Positions 9,389 to 63,377 of a DNA stretch of 64,000 nucleotides are shown here, piece after piece. The position numbers and the translations under genes are program-made. Within the stretch, counting starts at the first letter, position 1. Every line of letters begins with the position of its first letter. Below the pieces are notes generated by a model. It was not told where the DNA came from. It saw nothing but the letters and a program-made list of their open reading frames with translations, and did not search any database. The DNA lies in NCBI RefSeq assembly GCF_902726645.1, contig NZ_CACVAO010000001.1, forward strand, positions 2,836,764-2,900,763. The letters are read 5' to 3'. Source of the DNA: Halobacillus ihumii (lineage in GTDB: Bacteria > Bacillota > Bacilli > Bacillales > Halobacillaceae).

Positions 9389-10402
9389 TTATTCGGTGTC
9401 TTTTGTACGAGCAAGCTGTTGTTTATTCAGGGTGCCAGGTGGTTGTTCTAACCATCCATGATCAATCATAAGTTCAGCACCGTCTTTCGCGTATTTTGCG
9501 ATTTCTAATGACATACGTTCATATTCGACAAACAGATCCGTTCTCTGACTAGCTGCTGCTCCAGTTGCATAATTCCCAATTCCTGCTCCGCTTAACAGGT
9601 CCATATGGAATAGAATTAATCGATCTGAGAAGGGCGGTACAGTGGAATTAGTGATACCGGCGTCTGAGGAAGCAGGTGCTTGGATATTGTTGTCCAGAAG
9701 AGTTTTTGCGAAAACTTCCACATGTTTTTTGGCGATTTCCGCTCCTCTGAACAACCAATTTTGTACGTCCCTCCTCGGGGAAGTTTGCGCAAAGCCGATA
9801 GTAAGCTTATGGCCTATGATATTTGTCTGAACGTTCATGAATAGATGAGATATTTCTATAGCATTCAGCGGTCTTTGTTTATGGAAAAGTGAATAACCAT
9901 TTAAATATTTTTTAGAATTGATAAATTCTGTGGTTTGAGGGTAAGCCATATAAGGGGCTCTGACAAAGATACCCTTGGAAAGAGAAACATCAGAACTTCT
10001 GTCATATAACTCAGAGGCTTCCTGCAGCCCTGTTAAAAAATAGTTTCTTACATCTTTCCGAGCACTCATGGCGATATAACTGCTGTAGGCAAGTAATCCG
10101 ACCTTAGCCATATGATTAATATACGTGAGCTTGAATATGTCTGTAAAAAGTCTAGGAGCATTTAAATTCACATCATTCTCTAGAGTGAAGCTTGTCGGAA
10201 TTGGAATTTCTTCCATCTCAAAAATAGTGGTCAATTGCTTTTTATGGGTTGTCGTCAGGTCATAAGCAAATTGCACAATTGGTCGTATCTCTTCGTCTTC
10301 TATATGTTTAAGAAAGTACTTTAATATGCAATTCGACATACTGTCATTCATATAACTCGTCCACAATGAGGCTAATTCAGAAGAAGTAAGTTTAGTACTC
10401 AT
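9389..10402 (-). CDS. DUF3231 protein (copy 1)
   Basis: Predicted 337-aa protein made of two similar halves, the usual DUF3231 duplication. Each half has a helical bundle, and PPFSDRLILFHMDLLSGAGIGNYATG stands in the second half. DUF3231 proteins are common in spore-formers and have a ferritin-like helical pattern, but their role is unknown. ATG 10402 follows GTGGAGG; a longer start lacks support. A paralogue of exactly the same length is at 21703-22716. Confidence 0.82.
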   Translation of the reverse strand: MSTKLTSSELASLWTSYMNDSMSNCILKYFLKHIEDEEIRPIVQFAYDLTTTHKKQLTTIFEMEEIPIPTSFTLENDVNLNAPRLFTDIFKLTYINHMAKVGLLAYSSYIAMSARKDVRNYFLTGLQEASELYDRSSDVSLSKGIFVRAPYMAYPQTTEFINSKKYLNGYSLFHKQRPLNAIEISHLFMNVQTNIIGHKLTIGFAQTSPRRDVQNWLFRGAEIAKKHVEVFAKTLLDNNIQAPASSDAGITNSTVPPFSDRLILFHMDLLSGAGIGNYATGAAASQRTDLFVEYERMSLEIAKYAKDGAELMIDHGWLEQPPGTLNKQQLARTKDTE

Positions 10403-49214: not shown

Positions 49215-50093
49215 TTAGATTGCCGGCGGACCAAATTTCCCGTCATGGAAATCCTGGAAAGCCTGTTTGATTTCTTCCATTGTATTCATCACAAACGGAC
49301 CATAAGGGACAATGTTTTCTTTTATTGGAGCACCTGAGTAAACGAGGATCTTGGTTCGGCGTTTGTTAGATTTTATGTTTAGCTCGCTGGAGTTTGCCTC
49401 CTCACCATCGTCATTAAACGACAATGTGGCCACCCCATGTTTCTTTAGATTGATATTATTTTTCCCGACGTCAAGATCTCCAGCTAATACATATAAAAAT
49501 GCATTATGGTTTTCCGGTAACGAAAGCACGTACTCGGCTCCATCAGATAAGGTGATCTCAGTAAGGGTGATCGGGACGATGGATTCCAACGGACCCTGGA
49601 CACCAGCAATTTTTCCGGAAAACACTTTAACAGATCCTCCTTCAATAGGAACGACTGGGGCTTCTTCTGAGTACACATTCTGATATATCGTTTCTGTGTT
49701 TCGTTTGTCTTTAGGAAGGTTCAGCCACAATTGGAGCGTGTGTGCAATATCATCCTCGACACCATCTTCTGCATGGCGAGCCGCCCATCCAGCATTCATA
49801 TATTGGACATCTCCGGGCTCAAGGATATCGCGCCCGCCTCCATTATCGATATGTTCTAATCTTCCGTCCACCACATACGTCACGGTCTGAAACCCACGAT
49901 GAGGATGGTCTGGAAAGGTTCCCTTCTTGAACCAATCTTCTGCCATTAATATGAAGGGATCAAATTCAGTCCAGCGATCAACTGGTAAAACCCATCCCTT
50001 CTGTATCGAAGGAAATCCCATTTCATTGTACGTTACATACCAGTGGTCTTTGACTTCTCTTTGTAAGGGTTGGTATTGATCTTCTTTTGCCAT
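49215..50093 (-). CDS. Pirin-family protein
   Basis: Predicted 292-aa bicupin. DPFILMAEDWFKKGTFPDHPHRGFQTVTYVVDGRLEHIDNGG carries the metal-binding His residues, followed by PGDVQYMNAGWAARHAE and a C-terminal cupin (AYVLSLPENHNAFLYVLAG-like). AAGGAG precedes ATG 50093. Some pirins have quercetin 2,3-dioxygenase activity; the role here is unknown. Confidence 0.9.
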   Translation of the reverse strand: MAKEDQYQPLQREVKDHWYVTYNEMGFPSIQKGWVLPVDRWTEFDPFILMAEDWFKKGTFPDHPHRGFQTVTYVVDGRLEHIDNGGGRDILEPGDVQYMNAGWAARHAEDGVEDDIAHTLQLWLNLPKDKRNTETIYQNVYSEEAPVVPIEGGSVKVFSGKIAGVQGPLESIVPITLTEITLSDGAEYVLSLPENHNAFLYVLAGDLDVGKNNINLKKHGVATLSFNDDGEEANSSELNIKSNKRRTKILVYSGAPIKENIVPYGPFVMNTMEEIKQAFQDFHDGKFGPPAI

Positions 50094-50315
50094 ATGAACT
50101 CCTTGATTGACCATTATTTTTATGATGCAGCTTGCTTTTCACCAGTCTGTTACACATACGATTTTACACGCCTTAAGTATAGACAGTTGGCGAAATGAGT
50201 GTCAACAAAACTGCACTTATACTAAGCTTCGAACCTTTTCTGGAAACCGTCTTCAGTCAGGATGATTTTATTGTATGATGGAAATATTAACTAACTTATA
50301 AGTGGAGGTGGAAGT

Positions 50316-50738
50316 GTGACGATTAAGGGAATTAATCATTTCTTATTTTCGGCGTCTAATTTGGAGGATTCGATCGCTTTTTACCAGGAGGTGTTCGATG
50401 CGAATCTTTTAGTAAAAGGGAGGAGCACAGCCTATTTTGATGTAAATGGAATGTGGTTTGCTTTGAATGAAGAAAAAGAGATTCCGCGAAATGACATCTC
50501 GCAATCTTATACACATATCGCTTTTTCAATTGAGGAAAACGACTTTGATAAGATGTATGAAAAACTTAATAAGTTGAACGTAAATATCTTGTCTGGACGG
50601 CCAAGGGATAGGAAGGACAAACAATCGATTTATTTTACGGATCCAGATGGTCATAAATTTGAATTTCATACAGGCACACTGCAAGACAGGTTAAACTATT
50701 ATAAAGAGGATAAGCCGCATATGACATTTTTTGACTGA
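50316..50738 (+). CDS. fosB: FosB-type bacillithiol transferase (fosfomycin resistance family)
   Basis: Predicted 140-aa vicinal oxygen chelate enzyme. Metal ligands are visible as His8 (GINHFLFS), His67 (YTHIAFS) and Glu116 (KFEFHTGTL). The protein has two paired beta-alpha-beta-beta-beta modules. FosB enzymes of Firmicutes add bacillithiol to fosfomycin. It starts at GTG 50316 behind GTGGAGGTGG. It is an intrinsic, chromosomal type with no mobile context. Confidence 0.88.
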
Positions 50739-50755
50739 AAGGACCGCGAAACTCC

Positions 50756-50859
50756 GATATTTAAGAATCCTAACTAGTTATTTAAGAATCCAGGCTGGTT
50801 ATTTTAGAATCATAGGCCGTTATTTTAGAAAAATCCTTGTTATTTCAGAATCACTTAGG
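50756..50859. repeat. 21-nt tandem array D (5 units)
   Basis: Units start at 50756, 50777, 50798, 50819 and 50839 (21, 21, 21, 20 nt). Each opens GTTATTT(A/T)AGAATC or close variants (GATATTTAAGAATC, GTTATTTTAGAATC, GTTATTTCAGAATC). The first unit contains CCTAAC, the core shared with arrays A-C. It lies directly after fosB, before its terminator. Confidence 0.8.
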
Positions 50860-50880
50860 AAGCACGAGTAAATAGTCATC

Positions 50881-50919
50881 ACGGACGCTGTCTTGAAAAA
50901 GGCAGCGTCCGTTTTTTTA
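50881..50919 (+). terminator. Strong terminator downstream of fosB
   Basis: ACGGACGCTG and CAGCGTCCGT form a perfect 10-bp stem, followed by seven T residues. Confidence 0.9.
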
Positions 50920-50948
50920 TGGATGCGCTCATTACAAGATGTAGGTGT

Positions 50949-50977
50949 GAATAGGAATAGAGTTGGTCTCATATATA
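50949..50977 (+). promoter_or_regulatory. Possible SigE promoter of cotJABC
   Basis: GAATAGG (-35 core ATA at 50951) and CATATATA (-10 at 50970) are spaced as in mother-cell SigE promoters. B. subtilis cotJ is SigE-dependent. The match is partial. Confidence 0.4.
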
Positions 50978-51014
50978 TGAGGTGATGCATTTATCAATGG
51001 GAAGGAGGGTGTTT

Positions 51015-51245
51015 ATGTACACACAGTATAAATATTGGAGGCCCTATTACAGTCCGTTTGATCCGTGTCCGCCCATGAAAATAAAGAGTTACTCCACCCC
51101 GCCTCAGTTGTACATGGGATTTCAGCCATATGGATTAGCCCAGTACCAAACGCCTAAAGAGGCTCTGTTCAGTGGAACTTTATGGCCGCAGCTTTTTAGT
51201 CCGTATCCAAATCCACACAAGAGGGGGAGTGAAGAGAATGAGTAA
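51015..51245 (+). CDS. cotJA: Spore coat protein CotJA
   Basis: Predicted 76-aa Pro/Tyr-rich protein (YKYWRPYYSPFDPCPPMKIKSY, TPPQLYMGFQPYGL, FSGTLWPQLFSPY). The pattern is typical of CotJA, the inner-coat partner of CotJC. AAGGAGGG precedes ATG 51015; an extended start is not supported. First gene of the cotJ operon. Confidence 0.9.
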   Translation: MYTQYKYWRPYYSPFDPCPPMKIKSYSTPPQLYMGFQPYGLAQYQTPKEALFSGTLWPQLFSPYPNPHKRGSEENE

Positions 51246-51501
51246 GAAGATGCCTCCTGAATACTATCAGCAGCTTGAGGAAATTCAGGCCATTGACTTC
51301 GTCTTAGTCGAATTGAACCTTTACTTAGATACACACCCCAATGATTATGATGCCATTCATCAATTTAATGAATTTACCAGGAAATCGATGGAACTTAAGG
51401 CTCGCTTTGAGAGCAAGTTTGGCCCACTAATGCATTTTGGTAGAAGCTTCGTAAGCTATCCTTGGAACTGGGATGATACCCCCTGGCCGTGGCAGGTTTA
51501 A
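51238..51501 (+). CDS. cotJB: Spore coat protein CotJB
   Basis: Predicted 87-aa protein: PPEYYQQLEEIQAIDFVLVELNLYLDTHPNDYDAI, then KFGPLMHFGRSF and a WNWDDTPWPWQV end. Both ends are diagnostic of CotJB. It overlaps the end of cotJA by 8 nt, with GGGGGAGTGAAG as ribosome binding site. It is required with CotJA for assembly of CotJC in B. subtilis. Confidence 0.92.
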   Translation: MSKKMPPEYYQQLEEIQAIDFVLVELNLYLDTHPNDYDAIHQFNEFTRKSMELKARFESKFGPLMHFGRSFVSYPWNWDDTPWPWQV

Positions 51502-51530
51502 ACAGAACGAACTGATGGGAGGAATAGTGA

Positions 51531-51809
51531 ATGTGGTATTACGAGAAGAAACTTCAATATCCCGTAAAGGTGCGGGATTGCAATCCAATGTTAGCAAAAT
51601 TCCTGATTGAACAATATGGCGGGGCCGACGGGGAATTAGCTGCGGCACTACGGTATTTGAATCAACGGTACACGATCCCTGACAAGGTTGTAGGTCTGCT
51701 AAATGACATTGGAACAGAGGAGTTCGCCCACCTCGAAATGATTGCGACGATGGTCTATAAACATACAATAACCATTATGCAACCTTTAGAAAAGCCTCTA
51801 CATTCATGA
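51531..51809 (+). CDS. cotJC: CotJC N-terminal part, interrupted at codon 77
   Basis: Residues 1-76 (MWYYEKKLQYPVKVRDCNP through EEFAHLEMIATMVY) are classic CotJC, a manganese-catalase-like coat protein. After the TATAA at 51756 the frame leaves the family and reads 15 unrelated residues to a stop at 51809. The missing 112 residues are at 59315-59654. Fusing the two at TCTATAA gives 189 codons in frame, the normal CotJC length. The vegetative form should lack half of the metal site and be inactive. Good ribosome binding site GGGAGG. Confidence 0.95.
   Translation: MWYYEKKLQYPVKVRDCNPMLAKFLIEQYGGADGELAAALRYLNQRYTIPDKVVGLLNDIGTEEFAHLEMIATMVYKHTITIMQPLEKPLHS
51754..51784 (+). other. attL: crossover core and left attP arm
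   Basis: Core TCTATAA at 51754-51760. The arm ATGCAACC at 51777-51784 begins 17 nt after the inferred dyad centre, which lies between the last two core bases. This is the element half of the attachment site; the other half-site is in cotJC to its left. Confidence 0.8.
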
Positions 51810-51842
51810 TACTTTCCTTATTATAAACCCTCAGTAAAGCAT

Positions 51843-51876
51843 AAAAAAAGGACTACCTCCAAAAAGAAGGTAATCC
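51843..51876 (-). terminator. Terminator overlapping the 48-aa gene stop
   Basis: On the minus strand GGATTACCT and AGGTAGTCC form a stem containing the end of the reading frame, followed by TTTTTTTA. Confidence 0.7.
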
Positions 51877-51999
51877 CATAGCGACCTCTATAAATTTTTC
51901 AACATCTAATTCCCCTACATCTGTAGCTTTTCCTATTCCTTCTATAATAACAGTTTTATCATCTACAATAACAACATTATCCTCATTATGTTTAGTCAT
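51853..51999 (-). CDS. 48-aa element peptide next to attL, candidate recombination directionality factor
   Basis: A small gene on the minus strand. The peptide starts MTKHNEDNVVIVDDKTVIIE and ends EVAMGLPSFWR; it is acidic and compact. GGACGGTGA is a ribosome binding site 6 nt upstream. I do not recognise the family. Small adjacent proteins such as SprB are needed to reverse integrase direction in SPbeta, so its place beside attL makes it a candidate, but this is inference only. Confidence 0.55.
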   Translation of the reverse strand: MTKHNEDNVVIVDDKTVIIEGIGKATDVGELDVEKFIEVAMGLPSFWR

Positions 52000-52019
52000 G
52001 CTGTTCACCGTCCTTAATC

Positions 52020-52289
52020 CAGCGTATGAATGTTAAGGGTTGTCCAATAACCCTTACAAACAGTTACTTGCAGTTTCACTGAGAAAAAGGACAAACTTTT
52101 TTTATTTATTTTCAAAACTACCTGTACCGCCCTATGTTTTTATGAACTATAAAGCAGACAGGTTAATAAGCCTGTTACGGTAAATAAAGACATATGGAAA
52201 TTTCCTTTGATTAAGACGAGGCTTTAGACAGCCTTGTCTTTTTTATATCCTGTTAATGCAATTTTATTTCATATGGGTAGGTGAACAGA
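52020..52289 (+). other. Gap with two hairpins and a terminator; possible small RNA
   Basis: AAGGGTTGTCCAATAACCCTT (52036) is a local stem, CAGGTTAATAAGCCTG (52159) a second. A strong terminator AAGACGAGGC/GCCTTGTCTT plus T-run is at 52213-52245. No gene ends at this terminator, so an untranslated transcript from about 52130 is possible. The XRE gene follows. Confidence 0.35.
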
Positions 52290-52568
52290 ATGGAAAATAG
52301 GCGTGGTGCTTATAATCATGACTACAATTTAGATGAACGCTATCTAAGACAAGTACGGTTATTAAGAAACCTGACACTAAAGGACATGGCTAAGTATATG
52401 GAAATGAATGATACAATCATTTCTCGTTTAGAAAATGGACAGATAGATTTCACACCTTATTACCATGACCGATTAAAGCAGGCGTGTAAAAAATTGAAAG
52501 TAACCAATGACGAGTTACTAGCATGTAGAAATATAATCCAGCAACGTGAGAAACGAGGCTATAAGTAA
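52290..52568 (+). CDS. XRE-type transcriptional regulator
   Basis: Predicted 92-aa protein with a single helix-turn-helix (residues 24-78: YLRQVRLLRNLTLKDMAKYMEMNDTIISRLENG). GGTAGGTG fits ATG 52290. It is a candidate repressor controlling the element's short genes. The TAA overlaps the ATG of the next peptide (TAATG). Confidence 0.78.
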   Translation: MENRRGAYNHDYNLDERYLRQVRLLRNLTLKDMAKYMEMNDTIISRLENGQIDFTPYYHDRLKQACKKLKVTNDELLACRNIIQQREKRGYK

Positions 52569-52645
52569 TGGCTACAATAGTTCTGTTGTTAGTCATTAAA
52601 GGGGTTATGGTGTTAAGGGAAGCTAACGAACTAAAACAAATTTAA
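52568..52645 (+). CDS. 25-aa peptide coupled to the XRE gene
   Basis: MATIVLLLVIKGVMVLREAN then ELKQI: a short hydrophobic helix with a polar tail. The start shares its A with the XRE stop codon, so translation could be coupled. Support is positional only. Confidence 0.35.
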   Translation: MATIVLLLVIKGVMVLREANELKQI

Positions 52646-52662
52646 AAAGGTGGTTATTTATA

Positions 52663-53013
52663 ATGGCAGAATTTAACAAGGAACTGGTGAGAAAACTTGC
52701 CCACGGAGATAAAGAGGCACAAGAACAGATTAAGGATTTACCTTTAACAGTTCGTATGAGTTTAGGGGCTACTGTAGATCAGCTTAGACGTGATGAAAAC
52801 ATTGTTCCTATGTCCAGTGGATTTAGCCTCTACGAACAAAAGAAAGTATCACAGGCAGATCATGACGCACTAGGTCAGGCTTTAGCAGAACGCAATAAGC
52901 GTTTACGTGAGGCTGAGGAATTGAAAGAGAAGATCAGACAGGAACATGCAGAAAAGATTGCTAAGGAACAAGTAGAACGGGCTAGGCTAGGACTTGCTAG
53001 AAATGATCGTTAG
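52663..53013 (+). CDS. Element protein with C-terminal coiled coil
   Basis: Predicted 116-aa protein. The N-terminal half (ELVRKLAHGDKEAQEQIKDLPLTVRMSLGATVDQLRRDEN) is helical. The C-terminal half (QALAERNKRLREAEELKEKIRQEHAEKIAKEQVERARLG) is a charged coiled coil. AAAAGGTGG precedes the ATG. No family recognised; similar small proteins occur on plasmids and phage-like elements. Confidence 0.65.
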   Translation: MAEFNKELVRKLAHGDKEAQEQIKDLPLTVRMSLGATVDQLRRDENIVPMSSGFSLYEQKKVSQADHDALGQALAERNKRLREAEELKEKIRQEHAEKIAKEQVERARLGLARNDR

Positions 53014-53037
53014 ATAATGTGATAAGGACGTGATTAA

Positions 53038-53142
53038 GTGACGTTTGGTAAGGCTTTTATGGAACTGGTTAAACAGTTAACGCCTGAACAGGCTTTACAG
53101 CTAGGTTTACTAGTTAAACAGTTAGAAGAACAAATGAAATAA
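53038..53142 (+). CDS. 34-aa element peptide
   Basis: GTG start after AAGGACGTG; MTFGKAFMELVKQLTPEQAL then QLGLLVKQLEEQMK, an amphipathic helix rich in Leu and Gln. It fills the gap between two larger genes in the same direction. Function unknown. Confidence 0.4.
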   Translation: MTFGKAFMELVKQLTPEQALQLGLLVKQLEEQMK

Positions 53143-53213
53143 TTCCCCTATATGTCCACTGGCTTTATTTAGCTGGTGGATTTTTTATTTTACTTTGAAA
53201 GGTTGTTAAGAAG

Positions 53214-53561
53214 ATGGAAAAGGAACTAAAGAAATTGATCACTAATAGCTGTGCTAACTATATAGACCGTAGCTGTATCTTATTTGATAGGGAATGTCCG
53301 TTAATTAGTGGTGGGGAATATCGAGGTAAGAAGATTCCTGCTAGTGACTGTTCATGTGCTTACTTTGAAAAAGCTGTACTACCAGCAGATAAGACACTAG
53401 AGGCTATGTATTATTGCAAAGAGACGGTTTTAAACAAGACATGTAAAGGTTGTGGCAAGGGATTTAATTCTGTTTCAAACAGGGCTGTTTATTGTTCTGA
53501 TAGTTGCAGGAAATCAGCAAGGAAAAGCACCCATGTTAAATACAATCGTAAACGAGGCTAA
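53214..53561 (+). CDS. Cysteine-rich protein (Cys-rich VLP-like) with C-terminal zinc ribbon
   Basis: Predicted 115-aa protein with 12 or so cysteines. The N-terminal part (CANYIDRSCILFDRECPLISGG ... DCSCAYFEKAVLPAD) resembles the Cys-rich VLP domain of Firmicute conjugative elements. The C-terminus has CKGCGKGFNS and YCSDSCRKSAR, a zinc ribbon. AAGGTTGTTAAG is a modest ribosome binding site. A nucleic-acid or metal-binding role is plausible. Confidence 0.7.
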   Translation: MEKELKKLITNSCANYIDRSCILFDRECPLISGGEYRGKKIPASDCSCAYFEKAVLPADKTLEAMYYCKETVLNKTCKGCGKGFNSVSNRAVYCSDSCRKSARKSTHVKYNRKRG

Positions 53562-53562
53562 A

Positions 53563-53665
53563 TAACGACAATTAGGACTAAACAAAGCTAGTCACAGCAA
53601 GGTTTTCAAGCGTTAAGAATTAGGGGGCAAGGTGTTTATACCTGACCTGTTTCTAACTGTCGTTA
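53563..53665. ncRNA. Candidate 103-nt structured RNA
   Basis: TAACGACAATTAG (53563-53575) and CTAACTGTCGTTA (53653-53665) can form a 13-bp stem with a single A-C mismatch closing about 77 nt. Inside, AGGTGTTTATACCT forms a small hairpin. There is no coding frame. It lies between the Cys-rich and coiled-coil genes of the element. Confidence 0.35.
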
Positions 53666-53692
53666 AACACTATTAGAATAGGTGGTTATGTA

Positions 53693-54295
53693 ATGGCTAA
53701 TAAAAGGCAACGTAAGAAACAAATGAAAAAACAAATGGAGAAAATGAAGGCACTTGAGGCAAAGCAAAAGTTACAGGAAGAAGTTAAAGAAGCTGAACCA
53801 GTGGAATTAAATGACGAGGTTTTAAGTGACAATGAAAAGCCCTGGCTAAATCCTGTCCTTATTGAAACAGAACGTAATATAGAAAAGGCAGAACTATATC
53901 TAGGGAAGTATGAAGCGGAAAACAAAGAGTATCAAGCATTATTAGATAAACGCTATCCTGAGGGCAGAATAAAACCTGTTGAACGGTATGTAACTCAGGA
54001 CGCTATTATCCTTCATCATTGTAGTAAATGTAATCAGGAATTTTACGGAAAACCTAAATGGATGTTAGGTGCTGATCATCAGAAACATATCTGTACTATG
54101 CCTTATGGCAATAGTTACGGTGAAAGGTTGGCTAGTGTCAGCACCATTAAGAATCGAAAAAAGAAGGGTACTCTAAACATAAATCAGTTCTATGAGATGG
54201 TATGGAATGATTACACCTATAAGGAGATAGCCCAAACATTAAAGATTAACCCTGACATAGTTGAGGATTACTTTAAATCAAATGGATTGATATAG
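53693..54295 (+). CDS. Element protein with coiled coil, Cys/His cluster and C-terminal HTH
   Basis: Predicted 200-aa protein. Residues 1-30 are a Lys/Gln-rich coiled coil (KRQRKKQMKKQMEKMKALEAKQ). HCSKCNQEFYG (about 109) and a later HxxHIC give a possible zinc site. The end (NDYTYKEIAQTLKINPDIVEDYFKSNGLI) looks like a helix-turn-helix. TAGGTGG precedes the ATG. Family unknown. Confidence 0.68.
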   Translation: MANKRQRKKQMKKQMEKMKALEAKQKLQEEVKEAEPVELNDEVLSDNEKPWLNPVLIETERNIEKAELYLGKYEAENKEYQALLDKRYPEGRIKPVERYVTQDAIILHHCSKCNQEFYGKPKWMLGADHQKHICTMPYGNSYGERLASVSTIKNRKKKGTLNINQFYEMVWNDYTYKEIAQTLKINPDIVEDYFKSNGLI

Positions 54296-54328
54296 GCTAT
54301 GGCTGTAAAAGCTGTAGCCATTTTTTTA
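54295..54328 (+). terminator. Terminator of the rightward element operon
   Basis: GGCTATGGC and GCTGTAGCC pair (one G-U) around a 7-nt loop, followed by ATTTTTTTA. Confidence 0.8.
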
Positions 54329-54416
54329 TGTCCTGCGATAGTTCCCCGAATGGTTTCTGAAACTGGCAAAAAAAATTTTTATTAGCTGCTAAACCATTTC
54401 AAAGAGTGGAAAATCC

Positions 54417-54698
54417 CTAAGGACGGGTAGTGTTTTTAAGTATATTTCCTAGTAGCTGAGTAATTTCCCTGTTGTCGTGTTCCTTCTTTTCCGCAATTCT
54501 TTCCAGACGTGCATTAAGGTTACTTAATTCAGTATTTATGCCATTGAATCTTGTATTAACAGTGTCAAAGTGTTTATGAATCTCATTGAAACCTAACCTT
54601 GTTTCTGAACGGAACTCATTAAGGTTGGTATGAATAGACTTTACTTTGTTTAGTATCTCGTCAGTAATTGGATTATCATTATTCGTCTTATCAGTCAT
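54417..54698 (-). CDS. Coiled-coil protein of the element
   Basis: Predicted 93-aa protein. Heptad-like helices (LNEFRSETRLGFNEIHKHFDTVNTRFNGINTELSNLNARLERIAEKKEHDN) cover most of it. ATAGGAGGG precedes the ATG. Its orientation is opposite to its neighbours. No function can be assigned. Confidence 0.6.
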   Translation of the reverse strand: MTDKTNNDNPITDEILNKVKSIHTNLNEFRSETRLGFNEIHKHFDTVNTRFNGINTELSNLNARLERIAEKKEHDNREITQLLGNILKNTTRP

Positions 54699-55266
54699 AT
54701 ATAGCCCTCCTATATTGCAATTATAAGGTAACTACCCATTGAAGGGAATTTAATTGCACTGTATGGATTACAAAATATGGTAACTACATTCCTGAGACAG
54801 TGTGTCTGTTTAGAACGACCCTGACAGACGGTATATACATAGCCCTGTCCCCTGTATATGGGGGTATTTACCAGTTGACAAAATAATTTTAATATGAAGT
54901 TAATAGCTGTCTTGCTTTACAATTACTTATTATTTCTTTTCTTGATTCGTTTCAGTTCCTTGTCATTGTCCTGCTGTTGTCCTAGTGTGCTTGCCTTGTC
55001 GATTGTTGTTTTTGTACCTTTTCCTTTTCTCTATGCCTTACCTGTTGTTGCCGTTATTGCTGTTGCTGTCCTTGCCCTGTGGCGTTGCCTTAGCCCTTCT
55101 ATGGCTGTCACAGTGGCTATGTAGTCCTTATATTACATGTATATCTAACAGCGTGCATAGGGCTTATATGGTGCGGTGCGTTAGCCTTATTTGAGGTGTT
55201 CACAGTGACATATATACCTACACCCATACACGCTATTTAATGTTCTATAAATCCTTGCCTTTAGAC
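54699..55266. other. Gene-poor, strand-asymmetric stretch
   Basis: No supported gene. From about 54900 to 55130 the plus strand is strongly pyrimidine-rich with repeated TTGTC/TGTTGC words. Both overlapping hydrophobic frames here lack a ribosome binding site. A TTGACA at 54877 has no matching -10. On the minus strand a Gln/Lys-rich frame (ending KELKRIKKRNNK) is broken by an in-frame stop, so a decayed gene is possible. Confidence 0.4.
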
Positions 55267-55398
55267 CTATAGCCCTTTCTTTTTGCGTACTTCTCCAATT
55301 ATTGATTGTTTTATCCATAACGATTGAATAAAAGAAATAATAGCACCAGCCGTAACAATGATAAGAATTTCTTTTAGCCTTTTTTTATCCGTATCCAT
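55267..55398 (-). CDS. 43-aa single-span membrane peptide
   Basis: MDTDKKRLKEILIIVTAGAI, then ISFIQSLWIKQSIIGEVRKKKGL: one hydrophobic helix between charged ends. AAAGGTGG lies before the ATG. No family recognised; it lies upstream of and divergent from the resolvase gene. Confidence 0.55.
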   Translation of the reverse strand: MDTDKKRLKEILIIVTAGAIISFIQSLWIKQSIIGEVRKKKGL

Positions 55399-55494
55399 TT
55401 ATAATCCACCTTTAAAGTATAATTAGCTTAACTTAATATGCCTCACTTTAAATAAAGCTATTCCCAAAAAGCTAAGTCTACAAAGGTACACCAT

Positions 55495-55588
55495 AATAGA
55501 CGGTTAAGAAACTGTCCTATTAGCGTCTATTAAATAGATAAAATAAACCTTTATAAACGTATAAAAACTAATTGACCTTTATAGACGT
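55495..55588. other. Putative res site of the resolvase
   Basis: AATAGACG (55495) and CGTCTATT (55524) are inverted arms 21 nt apart. CCTTTATAAACGT (55548) and CCTTTATAGACGT (55576) are direct relatives 28 nt apart. Arms with a shared TAGACG core directly in front of a serine resolvase gene are typical of multi-subsite res regions. Confidence 0.55.
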
Positions 55589-55635
55589 TTGGTGTATATT
55601 AAGATTATCAACTAATAGAAACGGTGGTCATAATC

Positions 55636-56244
55636 ATGTCAGGAATCAATTTTGGTTATATTCGTGTATCAACTAAAGACCAGAACTTAAATAGACAGTA
55701 TGAGGCTTTAAAGGGCTATGTCAGTGACGAGAAATACATATACAGTGATAAAGCTAGTGGCAAGGATATGGAACGTGAAGGCTTTCAGAATATGCTTAAA
55801 GCCATGAGAAAGGGCGACACTCTCTATATCAAGTCTATTGATCGTTTAGGACGTAATAAGGCACAGATAAAGGATTATTTAGAACAGTTTAAGAAAGAGG
55901 GCATAAGGGTTAAGATCATAGACCTTCCTACTACAATGCAGGACGTCCCTGAGGGGCAAGAGTGGGTTATAGATATGATTAACAACATTATCATAGAGGT
56001 TTATACTTCTATAGCACAGCAGGAAAGAGAAACGATTCTACAGCGTCAAAGAGAGGGAATAGACGTTGCTAAGACTAAAGGTAAGCATTTAGGGCGACCA
56101 GTTTTAGAACTTCCTAAGGAATGGGCTAAATTATATAAACAGTGGAGGGCTGGAAAGATTAAAGCTGTAGAGTTTATGAATGAAGTGGAAATGAAAAAGG
56201 CAACATTCTATAAGAAGGTTAAAGAATATGAGGCTACACTTTAA
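55636..56244 (+). CDS. Small serine recombinase (resolvase/invertase)
   Basis: Predicted 202-aa protein. Catalytic Ser12 in GYIRVST, KSIDRLGRNKAQI and a QQERETILQRQREGIDVAK E-helix form the resolvase domain. A C-terminal helix-turn-helix (KGKHLGRP...KATFYKKVKEY) binds DNA. ACGGTGG fits ATG 55636. It may resolve element dimers rather than excise the element, which is the job of the large recombinase. Confidence 0.88.
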   Translation: MSGINFGYIRVSTKDQNLNRQYEALKGYVSDEKYIYSDKASGKDMEREGFQNMLKAMRKGDTLYIKSIDRLGRNKAQIKDYLEQFKKEGIRVKIIDLPTTMQDVPEGQEWVIDMINNIIIEVYTSIAQQERETILQRQREGIDVAKTKGKHLGRPVLELPKEWAKLYKQWRAGKIKAVEFMNEVEMKKATFYKKVKEYEATL

Positions 56245-56686
56245 TAGTGCTAGTCTCTTTTTTATACAAAATTATTTCACTGATAGTGCTGTTTGAAAGA
56301 TTATTGACCTTGTGCTTGGTGCATAATTATATCAAGATGAACACTTTATATAACCATTTACGATATGTCGTAAAAGTTGAGGCTGTAGGGTTGTGCGTAA
56401 AAAAAGTTTTGACACCCCTTGTCTATTCGAGGCAACCAAGCGTTTTCATTGCATAATCCTGCCTAAATCTAATAACTTCCATTTAATACAATTTTACATA
56501 GCTTAATCACAAAAACAATGATCTGTTAATCACAAATTCAGAAAAACAAAGTCACTACCGTAAGTGCTGTAATAATAATCACTTAATAATAATCAACTAA
56601 TAATAATACAATAGCATGTCCTAAAACCCTTCTCTATTGCAAGTATATCTTTGTAGGTAACTTATTATAGAAAGGAGGGTAGAACA
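56245..56686. other. AT-rich intergenic region with TAATCAC repeats
   Basis: No gene supported in this 442-nt gap. Words AGCTTAATCAC, CTGTTAATCAC and AATAATAATCAC occur at about 56499, 56523 and 56572. TAATAATAAT runs occur at 56563-56610. The TAATCAC word recurs in the inverted repeats beyond the GIY-YIG gene. It could be a regulatory or origin-like region. Confidence 0.35.
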
Positions 56687-57058
56687 ATGTATATTGATGA
56701 ACTAGCTGTAACGGTGCAAGAACTAACAGGAAAGACTATAAACTTTATAGGTGAACCAGTGCCAAAAAATAATGAAAGAAAATCCGTACTACTTTTTAGT
56801 AAATGTTTTCCGTCTCAGGGTGTTTATTTCTTCTTTGACAGTGATCTAAACCTTATTTATATCGGTGCGTCTTGTCATTTAAAACATAGAATACGGGAAC
56901 ATTTTCAAAATAAGCATAACAACACTAGATGGATTAAAGATCAGTTCGCCTATGCTGGTTTTATCGAGTGTTACAGTAATGAGGTATTCAAGTATGAGAA
57001 TAGCTTAATAAATGAATTTAACCCTAATGGGAACAGATCAGCCCTAAAATCTTTATAA
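56687..57058 (+). CDS. GIY-YIG-family nuclease
   Basis: Predicted 123-aa protein with a GIY-YIG core: GVYFFFDSDLNLIYIGASCHLKHRIREHF (residues 45-74) and a C-terminal YENSLINEFNPNGN with conserved Glu and Asn. A free-standing nuclease of this size is common in phage-like elements. GAAAGGAGGG precedes the ATG. The target is unknown. Confidence 0.82.
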   Translation: MYIDELAVTVQELTGKTINFIGEPVPKNNERKSVLLFSKCFPSQGVYFFFDSDLNLIYIGASCHLKHRIREHFQNKHNNTRWIKDQFAYAGFIECYSNEVFKYENSLINEFNPNGNRSALKSL

Positions 57059-57151
57059 TCACAGTTGACAGTGATTAACCTACTAGTAATATCAAGGGTT
57101 CACAGCCTTTAATAATCCCAAATCCTTTATAATCACAGTTGATAGTGATTA
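57056..57151. repeat. Two copies of a TAATCAC-N8-GTGATTA inverted repeat
   Basis: Copy 1 at 57056-57077 and copy 2 at 57130-57151. Each lies inside a longer near-identical repeat reading CTTTATAATCACAGTTGA, then (C/T)AGTGATTAAC. They are 74 nt apart, directly after the GIY-YIG stop. Dimeric operators or recombination-accessory sites are the likeliest explanations. Confidence 0.6.
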
Positions 57152-57676
57152 ACACTTATCAATTCAGTTTAAAATAAGTGGTTAACAAAAAGCCAACGCA
57201 CAAAATCAGGCTTGTAACAAAAATGTAACAATCCTGTATCCCTTGGGGCTGTAGGGTTATAGCGTTTGGTGAAAATTTCTATTAAAAACTGCCTGTAATG
57301 CGTGAGAGTTGGCACACTATAGTATATAAATAACAAAAGATAACTAACAAGAAACAAAGATCAAAAGATAAAAACCAGTGGAAGAAAACCACTTCCACCA
57401 TAACTAAAAACAACTACTAAGATATAACTAATGATAGCTATGATAATAATAAATTATAGATGGTTAAGAATTGGCGAAGTCCTGAAAGGACAAGCAAGGC
57501 ATAAGCCTTAGATAACTTAATTAAAAGTAATGCCACTAATTATAGTGGTATAGTGGATATTCATAGATAAATGTTCTTTTCTTTAACAGCATAACCTAAC
57601 AACCTTTTTAATCCCCTTAATGGCTTTTATAGCTGTTGGAGGGGTTTCTTTTTTTTGTCCAAAAGAAAAAGAGGAA
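57152..57676. other. Gene-poor gap between GIY-YIG and large recombinase
   Basis: No gene supported. A stem GTGGAAG/CTTCCAC lies at 57378-57398. A terminator (57609-57657: AATCCCC, then GAGGGGTTT and TTTTTTT) points rightward, yet no gene ends there, so an untranslated RNA is possible. The recombinase gene converges on it. Confidence 0.4.
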
Positions 57677-59236
57677 CTAGCTTACCTGTTCCCCTGACTG
57701 TCCTTTGTAATGGATTTTCATTTCAATCTCTGCTTTATGGTTTCCTACTCGTTTATACTCTATATGATCAATCATAGAAGTTAATAGGTGGTTTATTTCC
57801 TTTGTTTCTAATTCAGACGTTCCTTCCAACAGACTTTTCAACTTGTCTAATGTACTCTGTAATTCGTCAATTTTCTCATCTTTAGATTTAGTATCCAATT
57901 TGTTAATTTGTTGCTTTAAATAATCCTTATGTGCGTTTAGTTGTTTAATCTCTTTCTGTGCCTCGTCCTCTGTATAAATTTCAGCTACATAACCTTTCTG
58001 TACTTTCTTAATATTAGCCTCAATCTTTTTAATATTTGCTGTTAGGGTAGCTTTTTCATCAGCAGGGTTAGGCGTATTATCTTCTTTAATGTTTTGTTTT
58101 ATTACTTCTAAATATGATTCCAATTTCTTTACAAACTGACTGAACTTTGCAAAGAAAACCTGTTCAAATAAGTCTAACCTAACGCCTTTATTTTTACAGA
58201 CAGTATAATTTTCCCCATCCTTATCATAATACCTAGTTTGACAGGATGTAATCCTTAGTTCTTTTCCCTTTCTTCTTTGAAAGCTGTGAGTTCTTCCACA
58301 TGAACTACATTTAATTAAGCCTGTAAAGATCACTTTTCCAATTCTTGCACTAGGAGGCTTAGTTAGTCTGCCTTCTCTAATATCTTTTACCATTTCCCAT
58401 TTCTCAGGAGGGATAATAGGTTCATGTGCGTTTTCATATATGATCTGATCATTTTCCTCAGCCTTTAACTGTTTTGGAGAACCTGAGGGTTTTTTCTCAA
58501 TTTTAGAAACCTTCGTCTTACCATAGATAGCAGTACCCTTATAAACAGGGTTCGACAATACCACGGATATTCTCGCCTTATTCCATTTTGAACCTGTAGG
58601 GGTTAATGTTCCTTCTAAGTCAAAAATTCTTTCAATATCTGTTGATGAGTTACCTGACAAATATAAATTATAAATTCTTTCGATTATTGGTGCATTTTCA
58701 TTACGTACTAGCTTTTTAGTTTTATGGTCATAGTTGTAACCTATAGGGGTTTTTCCACCTACCCAATTACCTTTTTTGGCTGAGGTTCTTTTCCCCCTTA
58801 TCAGCCTTCTTTTAGTATTCAAATACTCTTGTTTATCTATAACAGTCTGAAAGTCACTTTGTAATGAACCCTCAGGAGACGACAGGTCAAGTCCTTTAGT
58901 GTTGCTAGGTGTAACAAGTTTTACCCCATAATTGGTCAGTATTTCTTTAACTTGTTCAATAACTAGCCCATTTCTCCCAAGTCTGCTTTGTTCAGCCACT
59001 ACTACAGCGTCATAGTGGAATGACTGTACCTTATCTAACATCTTGGTTAATTCAGTGTTAATGCCTTGAGAAGAACCATATTCTTTAAAAATTTCATATT
59101 CCCAACCATTCTTTATACATATATCTATAAGGACAGCTAACTGATTCTTTAAAGCCTCATCTGTCTCATCAGGTCTTGACTTCCTGATATAAATAGCTAC
59201 TTTTTTGATTTTATTTATTAACACGGTACTATTCAA
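57677..59236 (-). CDS. Large serine recombinase (SpoIVCA/SprA-type), predicted cotJC element excisase
   Basis: Predicted 519-aa recombinase. Resolvase domain residues 12-155: catalytic Ser20 in YIRKSRPDE, and AEQSRLGRNGLVIEQVKEIL. Recombinase domain about 165-270 (GYNYDHKTKKLVRNENAPIIERIYNLYLSG). Zinc ribbon near 310 (IKCSSCGRTHSFQRR ... CQTRYYDKDGENYTVCKNKG), then a coiled coil about 370-470. It starts at TTG 59236, 7 nt after AGAGGTGG. The length is close to SpoIVCA (500 aa). It sits 71 nt inside attR and reads into the element. No clear SigE or SigK promoter was found, though CATTTATTA upstream resembles a SigK -10. Confidence 0.93.
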   Translation of the reverse strand: MNSTVLINKIKKVAIYIRKSRPDETDEALKNQLAVLIDICIKNGWEYEIFKEYGSSQGINTELTKMLDKVQSFHYDAVVVAEQSRLGRNGLVIEQVKEILTNYGVKLVTPSNTKGLDLSSPEGSLQSDFQTVIDKQEYLNTKRRLIRGKRTSAKKGNWVGGKTPIGYNYDHKTKKLVRNENAPIIERIYNLYLSGNSSTDIERIFDLEGTLTPTGSKWNKARISVVLSNPVYKGTAIYGKTKVSKIEKKPSGSPKQLKAEENDQIIYENAHEPIIPPEKWEMVKDIREGRLTKPPSARIGKVIFTGLIKCSSCGRTHSFQRRKGKELRITSCQTRYYDKDGENYTVCKNKGVRLDLFEQVFFAKFSQFVKKLESYLEVIKQNIKEDNTPNPADEKATLTANIKKIEANIKKVQKGYVAEIYTEDEAQKEIKQLNAHKDYLKQQINKLDTKSKDEKIDELQSTLDKLKSLLEGTSELETKEINHLLTSMIDHIEYKRVGNHKAEIEMKIHYKGQSGEQVS

Positions 59237-59288
59237 TTTTTATCCACCTCTGAATATAATAAATGTAAGTATATCAATATCTTAACAT

Positions 59289-59314
59289 GGTTGCATTTTA
59301 GTTTCAATCTATAA
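59289..59314 (+). other. attR: right attP arm and crossover core
   Basis: The arm GGTTGCAT (59289-59296) and core TCTATAA (59308-59314). When the element ends join, this arm and ATGCAACC of attL become an inverted repeat, 17 nt on either side of one centre. This is the symmetric half-site pattern expected of a serine integrase attP. Confidence 0.8.
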
Positions 59315-59654
59315 GCTCACGAAAGATGCCACAGCTGAGCAAATGAAAGAAGCGGGCCTTGGAGCTCATTACGCTGATCATGATAAAGCACTCTTCTACC
59401 ATAATGCAGCGGGTGCACCATTTACAGCGACGTACATTCAAGCAAAAGGTGATCCAATCGCCGATCTCTATGAAGATATCGCAGCGGAAGAAAAGGCGCG
59501 GGCAACCTACCAATGGATCATTAATTTGTCGGATGACCCTGAATTGAATGACAGTTTGAAGTTCTTGCGGGAAAGGGAAGTCGTCCATTCGCAACGCTTC
59601 AGGGAAGCAGTAGAGATACTGAAAGACGACCGTGATCAGAAGAGGGTTTTTTAG
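59308..59654 (+). CDS. cotJC: CotJC C-terminal part (displaced by the element)
   Basis: In frame from the core TCTATAA: YKLTKDATAEQMKEAGLG, HYADHDKALFYHNAAGAPFTATYIQAKGDPIADLYEDIAAEEKARATYQW, EILKDDRDQKRVF. These are residues 76-189 of CotJC, with the second set of metal ligands. There is no start or ribosome binding site of its own, so it is expressed only after excision. A terminator follows. Confidence 0.95.
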
Positions 59655-59677
59655 TAAAGGTTTATAAAAAATGCTTT

Positions 59678-59716
59678 AAAGGCGCTGGTCCGAATTACCC
59701 CGGAAGGCGCCTTTTT
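59678..59716 (+). terminator. cotJ operon terminator
   Basis: AAAGGCGC pairs with GCGCCTTT around an imperfect inner loop, followed by TTG. Confidence 0.75.
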
Positions 59717-59795
59717 GTATTCAATAAAAAGGGTTATAGAATAAGTTGGAGAAGTATTACAGTATAGAGATTGTAAAGGTAGGAGGAGAGACGCA

Positions 59796-59993
59796 ATGCT
59801 GAAGACGATTTGTTTTTTCTGTAAAAAGAACTATACAATTGATCGCTCAGATACTCAGTATCAAAAGATTCTTAAAAGCCCTGAAACGCGTTATGTGTGT
59901 AAAAGCTGCAACCAATCCATGCAAAAAGAAGCCCAGGCAAGCAGCGGGTTAAATCCGGATGATATTGACAAATATGATAAGTATTTGCGCTAG
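59796..59993 (+). CDS. DUF2197 zinc-ribbon protein (YlaI-like)
   Basis: Predicted 65-aa protein with FFCKKNYTI and YVCKSCNQSMQ, two CxxC-type pairs forming a zinc ribbon, and a C-terminal charged helix. AGGAGGAGAG precedes the ATG. The function is unknown. Confidence 0.78.
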   Translation: MLKTICFFCKKNYTIDRSDTQYQKILKSPETRYVCKSCNQSMQKEAQASSGLNPDDIDKYDKYLR

Positions 59994-60016
59994 AATATGA
60001 GAAATAGGTGATTAGG

Positions 60017-60547
60017 ATGTTCAGTAGTAACAGAATAAACTTAAGGAAAGCAACTGAGAACGATGCGCCCATTTATCATAAATGGAGAAATAATCCGGTG
60101 GTAATGGAGAACACGAGTCCAAATTTAGATGTTTACACTCAAGAAGAGACGGAAGGTTTCATAAGGGAGATTACTAATTCCATCGATTCAAAATGTTACA
60201 TGATTGAACTAAAGGATCAAGATCAATCAATAGGCATTGTCTCTTTAATTAATATCGATTATAAGAATCGAAACGCAGAGTGCATAATTGATATTGGAGA
60301 GAAAGATTATTGGAGTAAAGGATATGGCCGGGAAGCTATGGAGCTAGTGTTAAACTATAGCTTTACAGAAATGAATTTACATAAAGTGTATTTGAGATTC
60401 TTTTCGTTCAATCATAGAGCGATGAAGTTGTACGAGAAGTTAGGATTCGTGAAGGAAGGGGAGCAAAAAGAACATATATTCAGGAACGGACAGTGGCATG
60501 GGGTTACCTTGATGGCTATTTTCCAAGGAGATTATTTGAAAAGCTGA
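60017..60547 (+). CDS. RimJ/RimL-type N-acetyltransferase
   Basis: Predicted 176-aa GNAT protein. LRKATENDAPIYHKWRNNP, IDIGEKDYWSKGYGREAMELVLNYSF (CoA loop GYGREA) and NHRAMKLYEKLGFVKEGEQKEHIFRNGQW are family hallmarks. AATAGGTGATT supports ATG 60017. Possible substrates include ribosomal proteins, aminoglycosides or peptides. Confidence 0.87.
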   Translation: MFSSNRINLRKATENDAPIYHKWRNNPVVMENTSPNLDVYTQEETEGFIREITNSIDSKCYMIELKDQDQSIGIVSLINIDYKNRNAECIIDIGEKDYWSKGYGREAMELVLNYSFTEMNLHKVYLRFFSFNHRAMKLYEKLGFVKEGEQKEHIFRNGQWHGVTLMAIFQGDYLKS

Positions 60548-60700
60548 GGGTCAAAACAGAAAAGACATAGGAAGTATAACAGTCCTAACCTTTCTAAACA
60601 TATATATCCCTATATCAGCTGCCTGCTTTAGCGAACCATAAACAAATAGAGTACTCTTAATAGGAATTGTTCTCTATTTTTGCAAGTGAGGGGGATTTTT

Positions 60701-61408
60701 ATTAAAAAGAAATGGGTTGTAGCTGGGATGATTTTAACAGCCCTCCTATTTTCCCTGTATGGGACTTATAAGCTGATGAATTCAAGGACAGTTCAGTTAT
60801 TTGGAGGGTTAACAAACAGAGTAGTAACAGATGAGAAAGTGGTGGCTCTAACGTTTGATGATGGCCCCACAAAGAATGTAGAAGACATTCTGCCCCTACT
60901 CGACAAATATCAGGTTAAAGCTACCTTTTTTGTAGTAGGAAAAGAATTGGAGAACAACCTTGATATAGGAAAACAACTAGTGGAAGCGGGTCACCAAATT
61001 GGAAATCATACCCATTCTCACGAACCCATGATCTTCAAAAGGTACTCCACGATAAAAGAGGAGGTTGAAAGGACTAACCAAGCCATACGGGCAACGGGTT
61101 TTAAAGGCGAGATTGATTTTCGTCCCCCGTATGGTAAAAAGCTTGTCACCCTGCCATATTATTTAAATCAACATCAGGTAGAAACGATTATGTGGGATCT
61201 TGAGCCGGATACTTATTTCTCTTCAGTGGAGGATAAAGTGAATTACGTAAATAAAAATGTCCAGCCAGGTTCAATTATTCTGCTGCATCCTATGTATGAC
61301 CAGACCAGGAATGAATGGAGAACGATTGAAGGGATACTGCGTTTTTTGACTCAAAAAGGATATAAATTTGTTACGGTTAATGAATTGCAAGCTATGGGTG
61401 ACGAATAA
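60701..61408 (+). CDS. Polysaccharide deacetylase (NodB type), probable AUU start
   Basis: Predicted 236-aa cell-wall enzyme: basic KKK start, transmembrane anchor (residues 5-24), NodB domain with VALTFDDGP, NHTHSHEP and DFRPPYGKK. The TTG at 60680 gives a longer frame but has no ribosome binding site. GAGGGGG at 60688-60694 points to an in-frame ATT at 60701 (6-nt spacing), giving a protein starting KKKWVVAG. AUU starts are rare (infC is one case). The conventional annotation would be 60680. Confidence 0.78.
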   Translation: MKKKWVVAGMILTALLFSLYGTYKLMNSRTVQLFGGLTNRVVTDEKVVALTFDDGPTKNVEDILPLLDKYQVKATFFVVGKELENNLDIGKQLVEAGHQIGNHTHSHEPMIFKRYSTIKEEVERTNQAIRATGFKGEIDFRPPYGKKLVTLPYYLNQHQVETIMWDLEPDTYFSSVEDKVNYVNKNVQPGSIILLHPMYDQTRNEWRTIEGILRFLTQKGYKFVTVNELQAMGDE

Positions 61409-61459
61409 AAACCATAGATTTCCTGTTTCAAAAAGATTAAGGAAGAATCTATGGTTTTA
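61407..61459. terminator. Terminator of the deacetylase gene
   Basis: AAAACCATAGATT and AATCTATGGTTTT form a 13-bp stem with a 22-nt loop, and T residues follow. Confidence 0.8.
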
Positions 61460-61541
61460 ACTGAATGGTAACGCCAACGAACTAATACTTATTTGGTTGT
61501 AACTTCCATTCGTTGCAGGACAGAAGGTCTGTGCTCACTTA

Positions 61542-63377
<1,836 letters not shown>

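Follow-up and report, generated by a model that had tools for sequence, protein, structure and literature searches.

A mobile element family splits the spore coat gene cotJC at one codon in spore-forming Bacilli and is predicted to leave the gene during sporulation

Developmental DNA excision in sporulating bacteria has been described so far for a handful of genes. The genes sigK, spoVFB (once printed spoIVFB), spoVR, spsM and gerE are listed as targets of sporulation intervening elements (PMC6957869), and yabG is given as a further target (PMC10747680). In Bacillus subtilis, spsM is interrupted by the 134-kb phage SPbeta, for whose excision sprA and sprB are necessary and sufficient; an engineered SPmini carrying only these two genes is still excised in sporulation (PMC4191935). 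The non-phage element gin (28.6 kb), located in gerE of B. cereus ATCC10987, encodes the serine integrase GirC and the recombination directionality factor (RDF) GirX, which are expressed during sporulation (PMC5595907). The prophage-like skin elements of sigK are excised in the mother cell by a serine recombinase, with SpoIVCA/Skr in B. subtilis and CD1231/CD1234 in C. difficile. In C. difficile, the small RDF is under the control of sigma-E and SpoIIID, and the recombinase is driven by sigma-A (PMC5025042). The RDFs of different elements all differ from each other (PMC10747680). Here, we analyzed a stretch of 64,000 nucleotides from Halobacillus ihumii (contig NZ_CACVAO010000001.1, positions 2,836,764 to 2,900,763; the whole stretch is called the window below), in which the coat protein gene cotJC is interrupted by an element of 7,554 bp. 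A previous sequence-only reading of the window had proposed a possible new single case in cotJC, akin to the elements known in sigK, spsM, spoVFB and gerE; spoVR and yabG also belong to this list.

The cotJC gene is broken in two within positions 51531-59654 of the window. As the sequence-only reading had claimed, the two halves have TCTATAA in common (at 51754 and 59308, 7,554 bp apart), and fusing them at this 7-mer gives a normal in-frame CotJC of 189 codons plus a stop codon, with no internal stop. Its third observation, a large serine recombinase at the junction, also agrees with our data: a 519-residue protein with Pfam Resolvase, Recombinase and Zn_ribbon domains is encoded at 57677-59236 on the minus strand, starting ~75 bp inside the right end of the element. 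Read through into the element, the 5' half of cotJC forms an open reading frame (ORF) of 92 residues, and this fragment matches positions 1-79 of Pfam Mn_catalase. When CotJC was aligned to the catalase 1jku, E35, E64 and H67 fell on one side of the break and E135 and H168 on the other. We take these five residues to be the metal ligands, which the break would divide three to two, and therefore neither half alone should form a di-manganese site.

To place the recombinase among its relatives, we considered the best 120 of 260 proteins retrieved from a protein database at E 0.001; 44 further recombinases with 59-84% identity were aligned for profile scans. Scanning genome_contigs (one genome per species, 84,980 species) and viral_contigs with the single recombinase gave no match, and the alignment detected 26 loci in genome_contigs, including 10 close ones (61-76% identity), and distant recombinases only (20-28% identity) in viral_contigs. 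All relatives in phages and plasmids are below 60% identity, and about 28% or less among the matches listed. Each of the 10 close loci adjoins a cotJC half, and the same 10 genomes contain cotJC only as two pieces with one break point, their other matches being paralogues at E 5e-9 or worse. The carriers include Rossellomorea aquimaris (two species-level genomes), Pseudalkalibacillus spartinae, Schinkia azotoformans, Pontibacillus yanchengensis, Paenibacillus mangrovi, Paenibacillus sp. FSL H7-0326, Sporolactobacillus inulinus, S. spathodeae and Niallia sp. NCCP-28.

The association between the recombinase clade and the split gene was also found in larger genome samples. Among 249 genomes of one order, seven have a clade recombinase. 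A cotJC search of the same genomes gave matches in 187 and none in 62 at E 1e-20; the 187 consist of 160 strong matches (E 1.6e-98 or better; full length among the matches listed), 19 genomes with a weak paralogue only (E about 1e-21 to 1e-24) and eight in which cotJC is apparently split. One of the eight (G169) was left out because its break consists of contig ends only (pieces 1-126 and 117-187, the second from base 6 of its contig), and the remaining seven are exactly the seven recombinase-positive genomes. In a wider draw that overlaps this sample, 10 of 397 genomes were recombinase-positive, and each of these ten has a split cotJC. In the order to which a Paenibacillus carrier belongs (296 genomes), there are two strong recombinase matches (G007 and G542), both with a split cotJC, and two weak ones, both with an intact cotJC. 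In the Niallia family (193 genomes), 45 genomes have a recombinase match, namely the already known carrier G009, two new strong matches (G773 and G754) and 42 weak ones. G773 and G754 were chosen by their recombinase alone as a prospective test, and both turned out to be split. Ten of the 42 weak-match genomes (170-226 bits) were checked, and nine have an intact cotJC and one (G735) a weak paralogue only. Together with the two weak-match genomes of the Paenibacillus order, cotJC is intact in 11 of 12 genomes with distant recombinases only; the other has no orthologue.

Overall, cotJC is split at Lys77 and an intact copy is absent in 16/16 further genomes with a located clade recombinase, and, with that of the window included, the clade recombinases scoring at least 463 bits are located in cotJC in all 17 cases, not counting a decayed second copy in G109. 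Because the same codon is broken in 16 other genomes, the split is neither due to chance nor to an assembly fault in one record, a possible artefact that the sequence-only reading had named as a refutation. The search for intact genes and similar insertions that it recommended found both; the split and the element are thus borne out, not as a single case but as a mobile family in 17 genomes. The joined cotJC frame is open in all 17 (188-189 residues, no internal stop), the join being inferred in G006, G008 and G109, whose halves lie on separate contigs. Two Sporolactobacillus genes carry a one-codon deletion. In 15/15 elements, the recombinase has an open frame of 496-546 codons, and the frame is open in the two later ones as well; in the search tables, one TAA was counted inside the recombinase match for G109 and for G007.

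Junctions aligned at Lys77 consist of the host sequence ATGAT(T/C)GCNACNATG(G/A)TNTA(T/C), then AA, and then the host codons for K-L-T-K-D. On the element side, the window contains two 24-bp arms, GGTTGCATTTTAGTTTCAATCTAT and ACATACAATAACCATTATGCAACC, which would form a palindromic attP of 50 bp with AA at the exact centre of the inverted repeat. Complementarity was scored around 17 candidate centres per element, and the maximum symmetry was located at the AA core in 17/17 elements; for a set of 13 elements, the mean was 13.2 of 20 at AA, and the remaining offsets had means of 5.6-8.2. The predicted point of exchange is therefore AA, to which site comparison narrows the longer 7-mer shared by the two junctions. 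The same symmetry argument has been used for the diadenine of gin (PMC5595907). Fifteen elements are inserted one way and two (G001 and G542; loci L066 and L135) in the reversed orientation at the same site, which suggests that both AA and TT are possible as attP core. The TT core of these two, read in their own orientation, follows from the AA of the host and is not independent evidence.

In all 17 elements, the recombinase and a short ORF of 29-59 residues lie at opposite ends, the short ORF just inside its end with its stop codon 45-150 bp from the core (15 elements measured). These small proteins have the consensus ...KTVIVEGxGKATDVGELDxKKFIEVAMxLPSFWR, and the distant ones (G196, G542, G109 and G754) retain part of it only. 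Because of this position, its size and the fact that it always accompanies the recombinase, the small ORF is predicted to encode an RDF. A profile search gave 69 database relatives, with no informative names except for one odd row, and there was no meaningful match in phage sequences. As far as our searches reach, this small-protein family is undescribed so far.

Upstream of the small ORF, amid poorly alignable sequence, a GACAA-N10/11-CATA block is present in 15/17 elements. Of the first 15, 13 were matched by a regular expression requiring a preceding A or G and a 14th (G004) was recognized by eye, and G109 has CAGA in place of CATA; in the later pair, G754 has the block and G773 has GACAT instead. 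The background is 26 matches in 435,820 strand positions, own matches included. In the window, the CATANNNT version of the block occurs twice versus 0.38 expected, and 7 of 100 shuffles reach two; the second match lies outside the element, at 9804-9827 on the minus strand. The same block, AGACAA...CATATAATA, precedes sprB of SPbeta. Abe et al. demonstrated the mother-cell expression of sprB and its role in excision, and described a promoter whose -10 region is perfect and whose -35 region is imperfect, for which they proposed help from SpoIIID, GerR or GerE (PMC4191935). For the recombinase, a sigma-A-like box with the same offset and spacing is found in 11/17 elements. The GACAA box is similar to the SpoIIID sequence WWRRACARNY, and its spacing to CATA is too short for sigma-K; the small ORF is therefore predicted to be under the control of sigma-E and SpoIIID.

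The element thus has the structure of a sporulation gene-intervening element, with rejoinable in-frame halves, its own recombinase and matching att sites, and its kinship to the known elements, as proposed in the sequence-only reading, extends to a predicted RDF and a mother-cell-like promoter block in the family. The nearest characterised recombinase that we found is SprA/YokA of SPbeta (about 28% identical, with 95% of the query covered); 9dxh (E 3e-23) and 9dxd were matched in the Protein Data Bank (PDB). The cotJC element and SPbeta both combine a large serine recombinase with a small directionality gene, a predicted one in the cotJC element, and an AGACAA...CATA block upstream of the latter, and both are inserted in a mother-cell gene. 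However, the target gene and the att sites differ, the cotJC element has no phage structural families among the scanned ORFs, and its small ORF has no SprB match. It is therefore not a SprA/SprB unit, having SprA homology but neither a SprB match nor the spsM target. It is similar to gin in being a non-phage element with a serine integrase, an RDF (a predicted one here) and a central AA in a symmetric attP (PMC5595907), but gin differs in its target and size: the 14 of 17 cotJC elements with both ends on one contig measure between 2,076 bp (Niallia) and 16,570 bp (G542), and the family has variable cargo and occurs in many genera. The expression logic predicted here, with the small RDF controlled by sigma-E and SpoIIID and the recombinase driven by sigma-A, is that of C. 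difficile skin (PMC5025042), whereas skin is prophage-like and targets sigK. Likewise, vfbin (in spoVFB), the spoVR element and yin (in yabG) carry recombinases and split sporulation genes but have other targets, and are set apart here by target. Besides the recombinase and the small ORF, the 2,076-bp Niallia element has no ORF of at least 90 residues, and it is a natural counterpart of the engineered SPmini. No report of an element splitting cotJC was found among the matches listed from the open-licence PMC literature. The target, the recombinase clade and the small-ORF family are new as far as our searches reach. The functional logic is predicted to be that of SPbeta, skin and gin, and these elements make up a well-supported new family of an already known type, set apart by their target, recombinase clade, small protein, breadth and minimal size.

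We consider it likely that the 7,554-bp insertion is a mobile element whose own recombinase, together with the predicted 48-residue factor, excises it from the DNA of the sporulating mother cell and restores cotJC. The circular element would integrate by recombination between its 50-bp palindromic attP and the attB of cotJC at Lys77, with exchange at AA. The recombinase alone would not reverse integration, and therefore cotJC would stay split throughout growth. In the mother cell, the small ORF would then be turned on, probably via sigma-E with SpoIIID, upon which the recombinase would join attL to attR and the gene would be rejoined. The mother cell would later die, and the element would be kept in the spore. 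We infer the roles of the small ORF and the promoter block, the timing and excision itself from sequence comparison.

Several observations weigh against excision in the mother cell as set out above. The promoter block has no clear sigma-E or sigma-K -35 region, and the distance from GACAA to CATA is too short for the gap of 14-16 nt reported for sigma-K promoters (PMC517825). The recombinase promoter candidate in the window is no better than in shuffles (P 0.12), and most single sigma-A-like boxes are near chance versus mononucleotide shuffles. The small ORF of the window has no match in SPbeta at E up to 10, its profile retrieved no YotN chain from the PDB, so that no known RDF was matched by sequence, and the AlphaFold model obtained for it is of low quality (mean pLDDT 67, pTM 0.32) and without structural match; in G109, the small ORF has only 29 residues and the weakest similarity. 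A scan of viral_contigs with the attP pattern of the circular form gave 0 matches. Some elements evidently decay: the second recombinase copy of G109 (334 bits; contig C85, locus L065) has five stops and is surrounded by cotJC fragments (codons 107-148 and 167-189), which may be the remains of an older element or of a duplication. Another CotJC C-terminal fragment is located at C107:8151-8279 of this genome.

The decayed copy of G109 would also fit a dead insertion, in which the element is immobile and cotJC a pseudogene, and so would the 19 of 249 genomes with a weak cotJC paralogue only. This explanation is very improbable in view of the open recombinase frames, the 17 open joined cotJC frames and the recent movement of at least one element pair. 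The pair is that of Sporolactobacillus, whose elements are 99.7% (4,756 bp) and 99.9% (1,738 bp) identical where aligned, while the flanking cotJC halves are 79% and 75% identical. In addition, the recombinases of G003 and G005 are 95% identical in hosts of different genera. Near-identical elements in diverged hosts point to live horizontal movement between species; most other element pairs align at their ends only, the G003/G005 and Sporolactobacillus pairs sharing more.

Such movement is also expected of a mobile island for which cotJC is a mere landing site, with excision for transfer on a signal unrelated to sporulation and CotJC lost in most carriers. The cargo is plasmid-like and defence-related in part, the window element encodes a helix-turn-helix (HTH) regulator, and the loss of cotJC appears to be tolerated, as a cotJC match at E 1e-20 is lacking in 62 of 249 genomes. 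Among the 30 sister-element ORFs scanned (a subset of the ORFs), type II restriction-modification genes were found in G004, G010 and G014, the methylase ORF of G010 also in G008, and an EcoO109I-like enzyme with a C5 methylase in G014. G003 carries an ABC-3C-like pair, with similar ORFs in G005, and a phage-integrase-family protein; G542 a PDC-M26-like protein; G007 a rolling-circle-type Rep; and G196 a weak DnaD-like match. Small resolvases are present in G007, G196 and G542. In L124:9723-14649 and the middles of other elements, many cargo ORFs have no family match; in this series of elements, which carry defence-like genes elsewhere, these could be a source of new systems. The mere landing site is nevertheless unlikely, if less so than the dead insertion, given the conserved sprB-like block upstream of the small ORF, the Niallia element that has kept the recombinase and small ORF only, and the cotJC 3' half. 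For the latter, the ratio of nonsynonymous divergence between the halves (dN3'/dN5') was 1.48-2.53 in 15 split genes versus 1.25-2.48 in 31 intact genes, with no clear sign of relaxed constraint. The intact set consists of the 30 best-scoring loci of the 249-genome sample, which is close to the window, plus one other, after one of 32 loci (L128) had been excluded by a motif filter. Two points reduce the weight of this comparison for our preferred explanation: the ratio of G004 (2.53) is just above the intact range, and, since some insertions are recent, intact halves may partly reflect recency rather than selection for rejoining.

Excision in the mother cell could also serve the host, as a domesticated timer from which it gains by delayed CotJC. 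The Niallia element, which retains the predicted excision pair without recognised cargo, is in line with this, and a precedent reportedly exists in C. difficile, where, by the title of a study by Haraldsen and Sonenshein, efficient sporulation needs sigK disruption. We give a host timer hardly any credence, as the patchy distribution (7 of 249 genomes) and recent transfer speak for a selfish element in the majority of carriers, and 160 of 249 genomes apparently manage without it.

The features of the window are listed in the table below. The small serine resolvase, with a 90% identical protein in sister element G001, may have a role in multimer resolution. At and after the end of the GIY-YIG gene (57043-57153), two iteron-like 37-nt repeats (TTTATAATCACAGTTGACAGTGATTAAC) lie 74 bp apart, which may be a site for replication or regulation of the element. 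No phage structural or packaging genes were found among 10 window ORFs (PHROGs), and no phage structural families among the scanned window and 30 sister-element ORFs (Pfam), a part of all ORFs; the window element thus does not appear to be a recognisable prophage. Comparison of positions 50000-63000 with plasmid records gave no near match except for the neighbouring glycoside hydrolase region. Three 21-bp repeats (TATTTAAGAATC...) stand in tandem at 50758-50820, upstream of the cotJ operon.

Table. Position, strand and basis of the features in and around the split cotJC gene of the window
Feature	Position	Strand	Basis or remark
cotJA-like and cotJB-like genes, upstream of cotJC	51015..51501	+	ORFs; names presumed from the cotJ operon
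cotJC 5' half	51531..51760	+	Codons 1-76 and bases 1-2 of the Lys77 codon
attL core dinucleotide AA, predicted crossover	51759..51760	.	Common to attL and attR on the cotJC strand, 17/17
attP right half-arm, ends ATGCAACC	51761..51784	.	24 bp, imperfect inverted repeat of left arm
48-residue ORF, predicted RDF	51853..51999	-	Position; 51 residues with GTG at 52008
Predicted mother-cell promoter block GACAA-N11-CATANNNT	52021..52044	-	Upstream of small ORF
HTH regulator, cargo	52281..52568	+	Pfam HTH_19/HTH_3
Cys-rich protein, cargo	53214..53561	+	Pfam Cys_rich_VLP
Unnamed 200-residue protein, cargo	53693..54295	+	Related ORFs in sister elements G004 and G001
Small serine resolvase/invertase	55624..56244	+	Pfam Resolvase, PHROG DNA invertase
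GIY-YIG nuclease-like protein, cargo	56687..57058	+	Pfam GIY-YIG
Large serine recombinase, predicted integrase/excisionase	57677..59236	-	Pfam domains, database relatives
Sigma-A-like recombinase promoter candidate TTGAAA-N17-TAAGAT	59279..59307	-	Inside attP arm
attP left half-arm, begins GGTTGCAT	59289..59312	.	attP symmetry
attR core dinucleotide AA	59313..59314	.	Junction comparison, attP symmetry
cotJC 3' half	59313..59654	+	Codons 77-189, without cotJC start codon

One coat gene, broken at one codon in 17 genomes, thus hosts mobile elements of one family, which have a recombinase clade of their own. We lean towards the view that, across spore-forming Bacilli, plasmid-like, often defence-carrying elements use Lys77 of cotJC as a dedicated docking site; hidden in a coat gene, they would pay little because they remove themselves from the DNA of a doomed mother cell, and the two-gene 2.1-kb Niallia element would be a reduced form, a natural 'DNA intron' with no activity other than its own removal. 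If excision is true, the family would provide a minimal excision cassette that occurs naturally, a collection of new serine integrase/attB/attP/RDF units, and a comparative series (one site, variable cargo and two orientations) on the coupling of excision to the mother-cell programme, and it would link the mobility of defence genes to sporulation. A cotJC gene annotated as broken or missing may be a split gene that can be rejoined.

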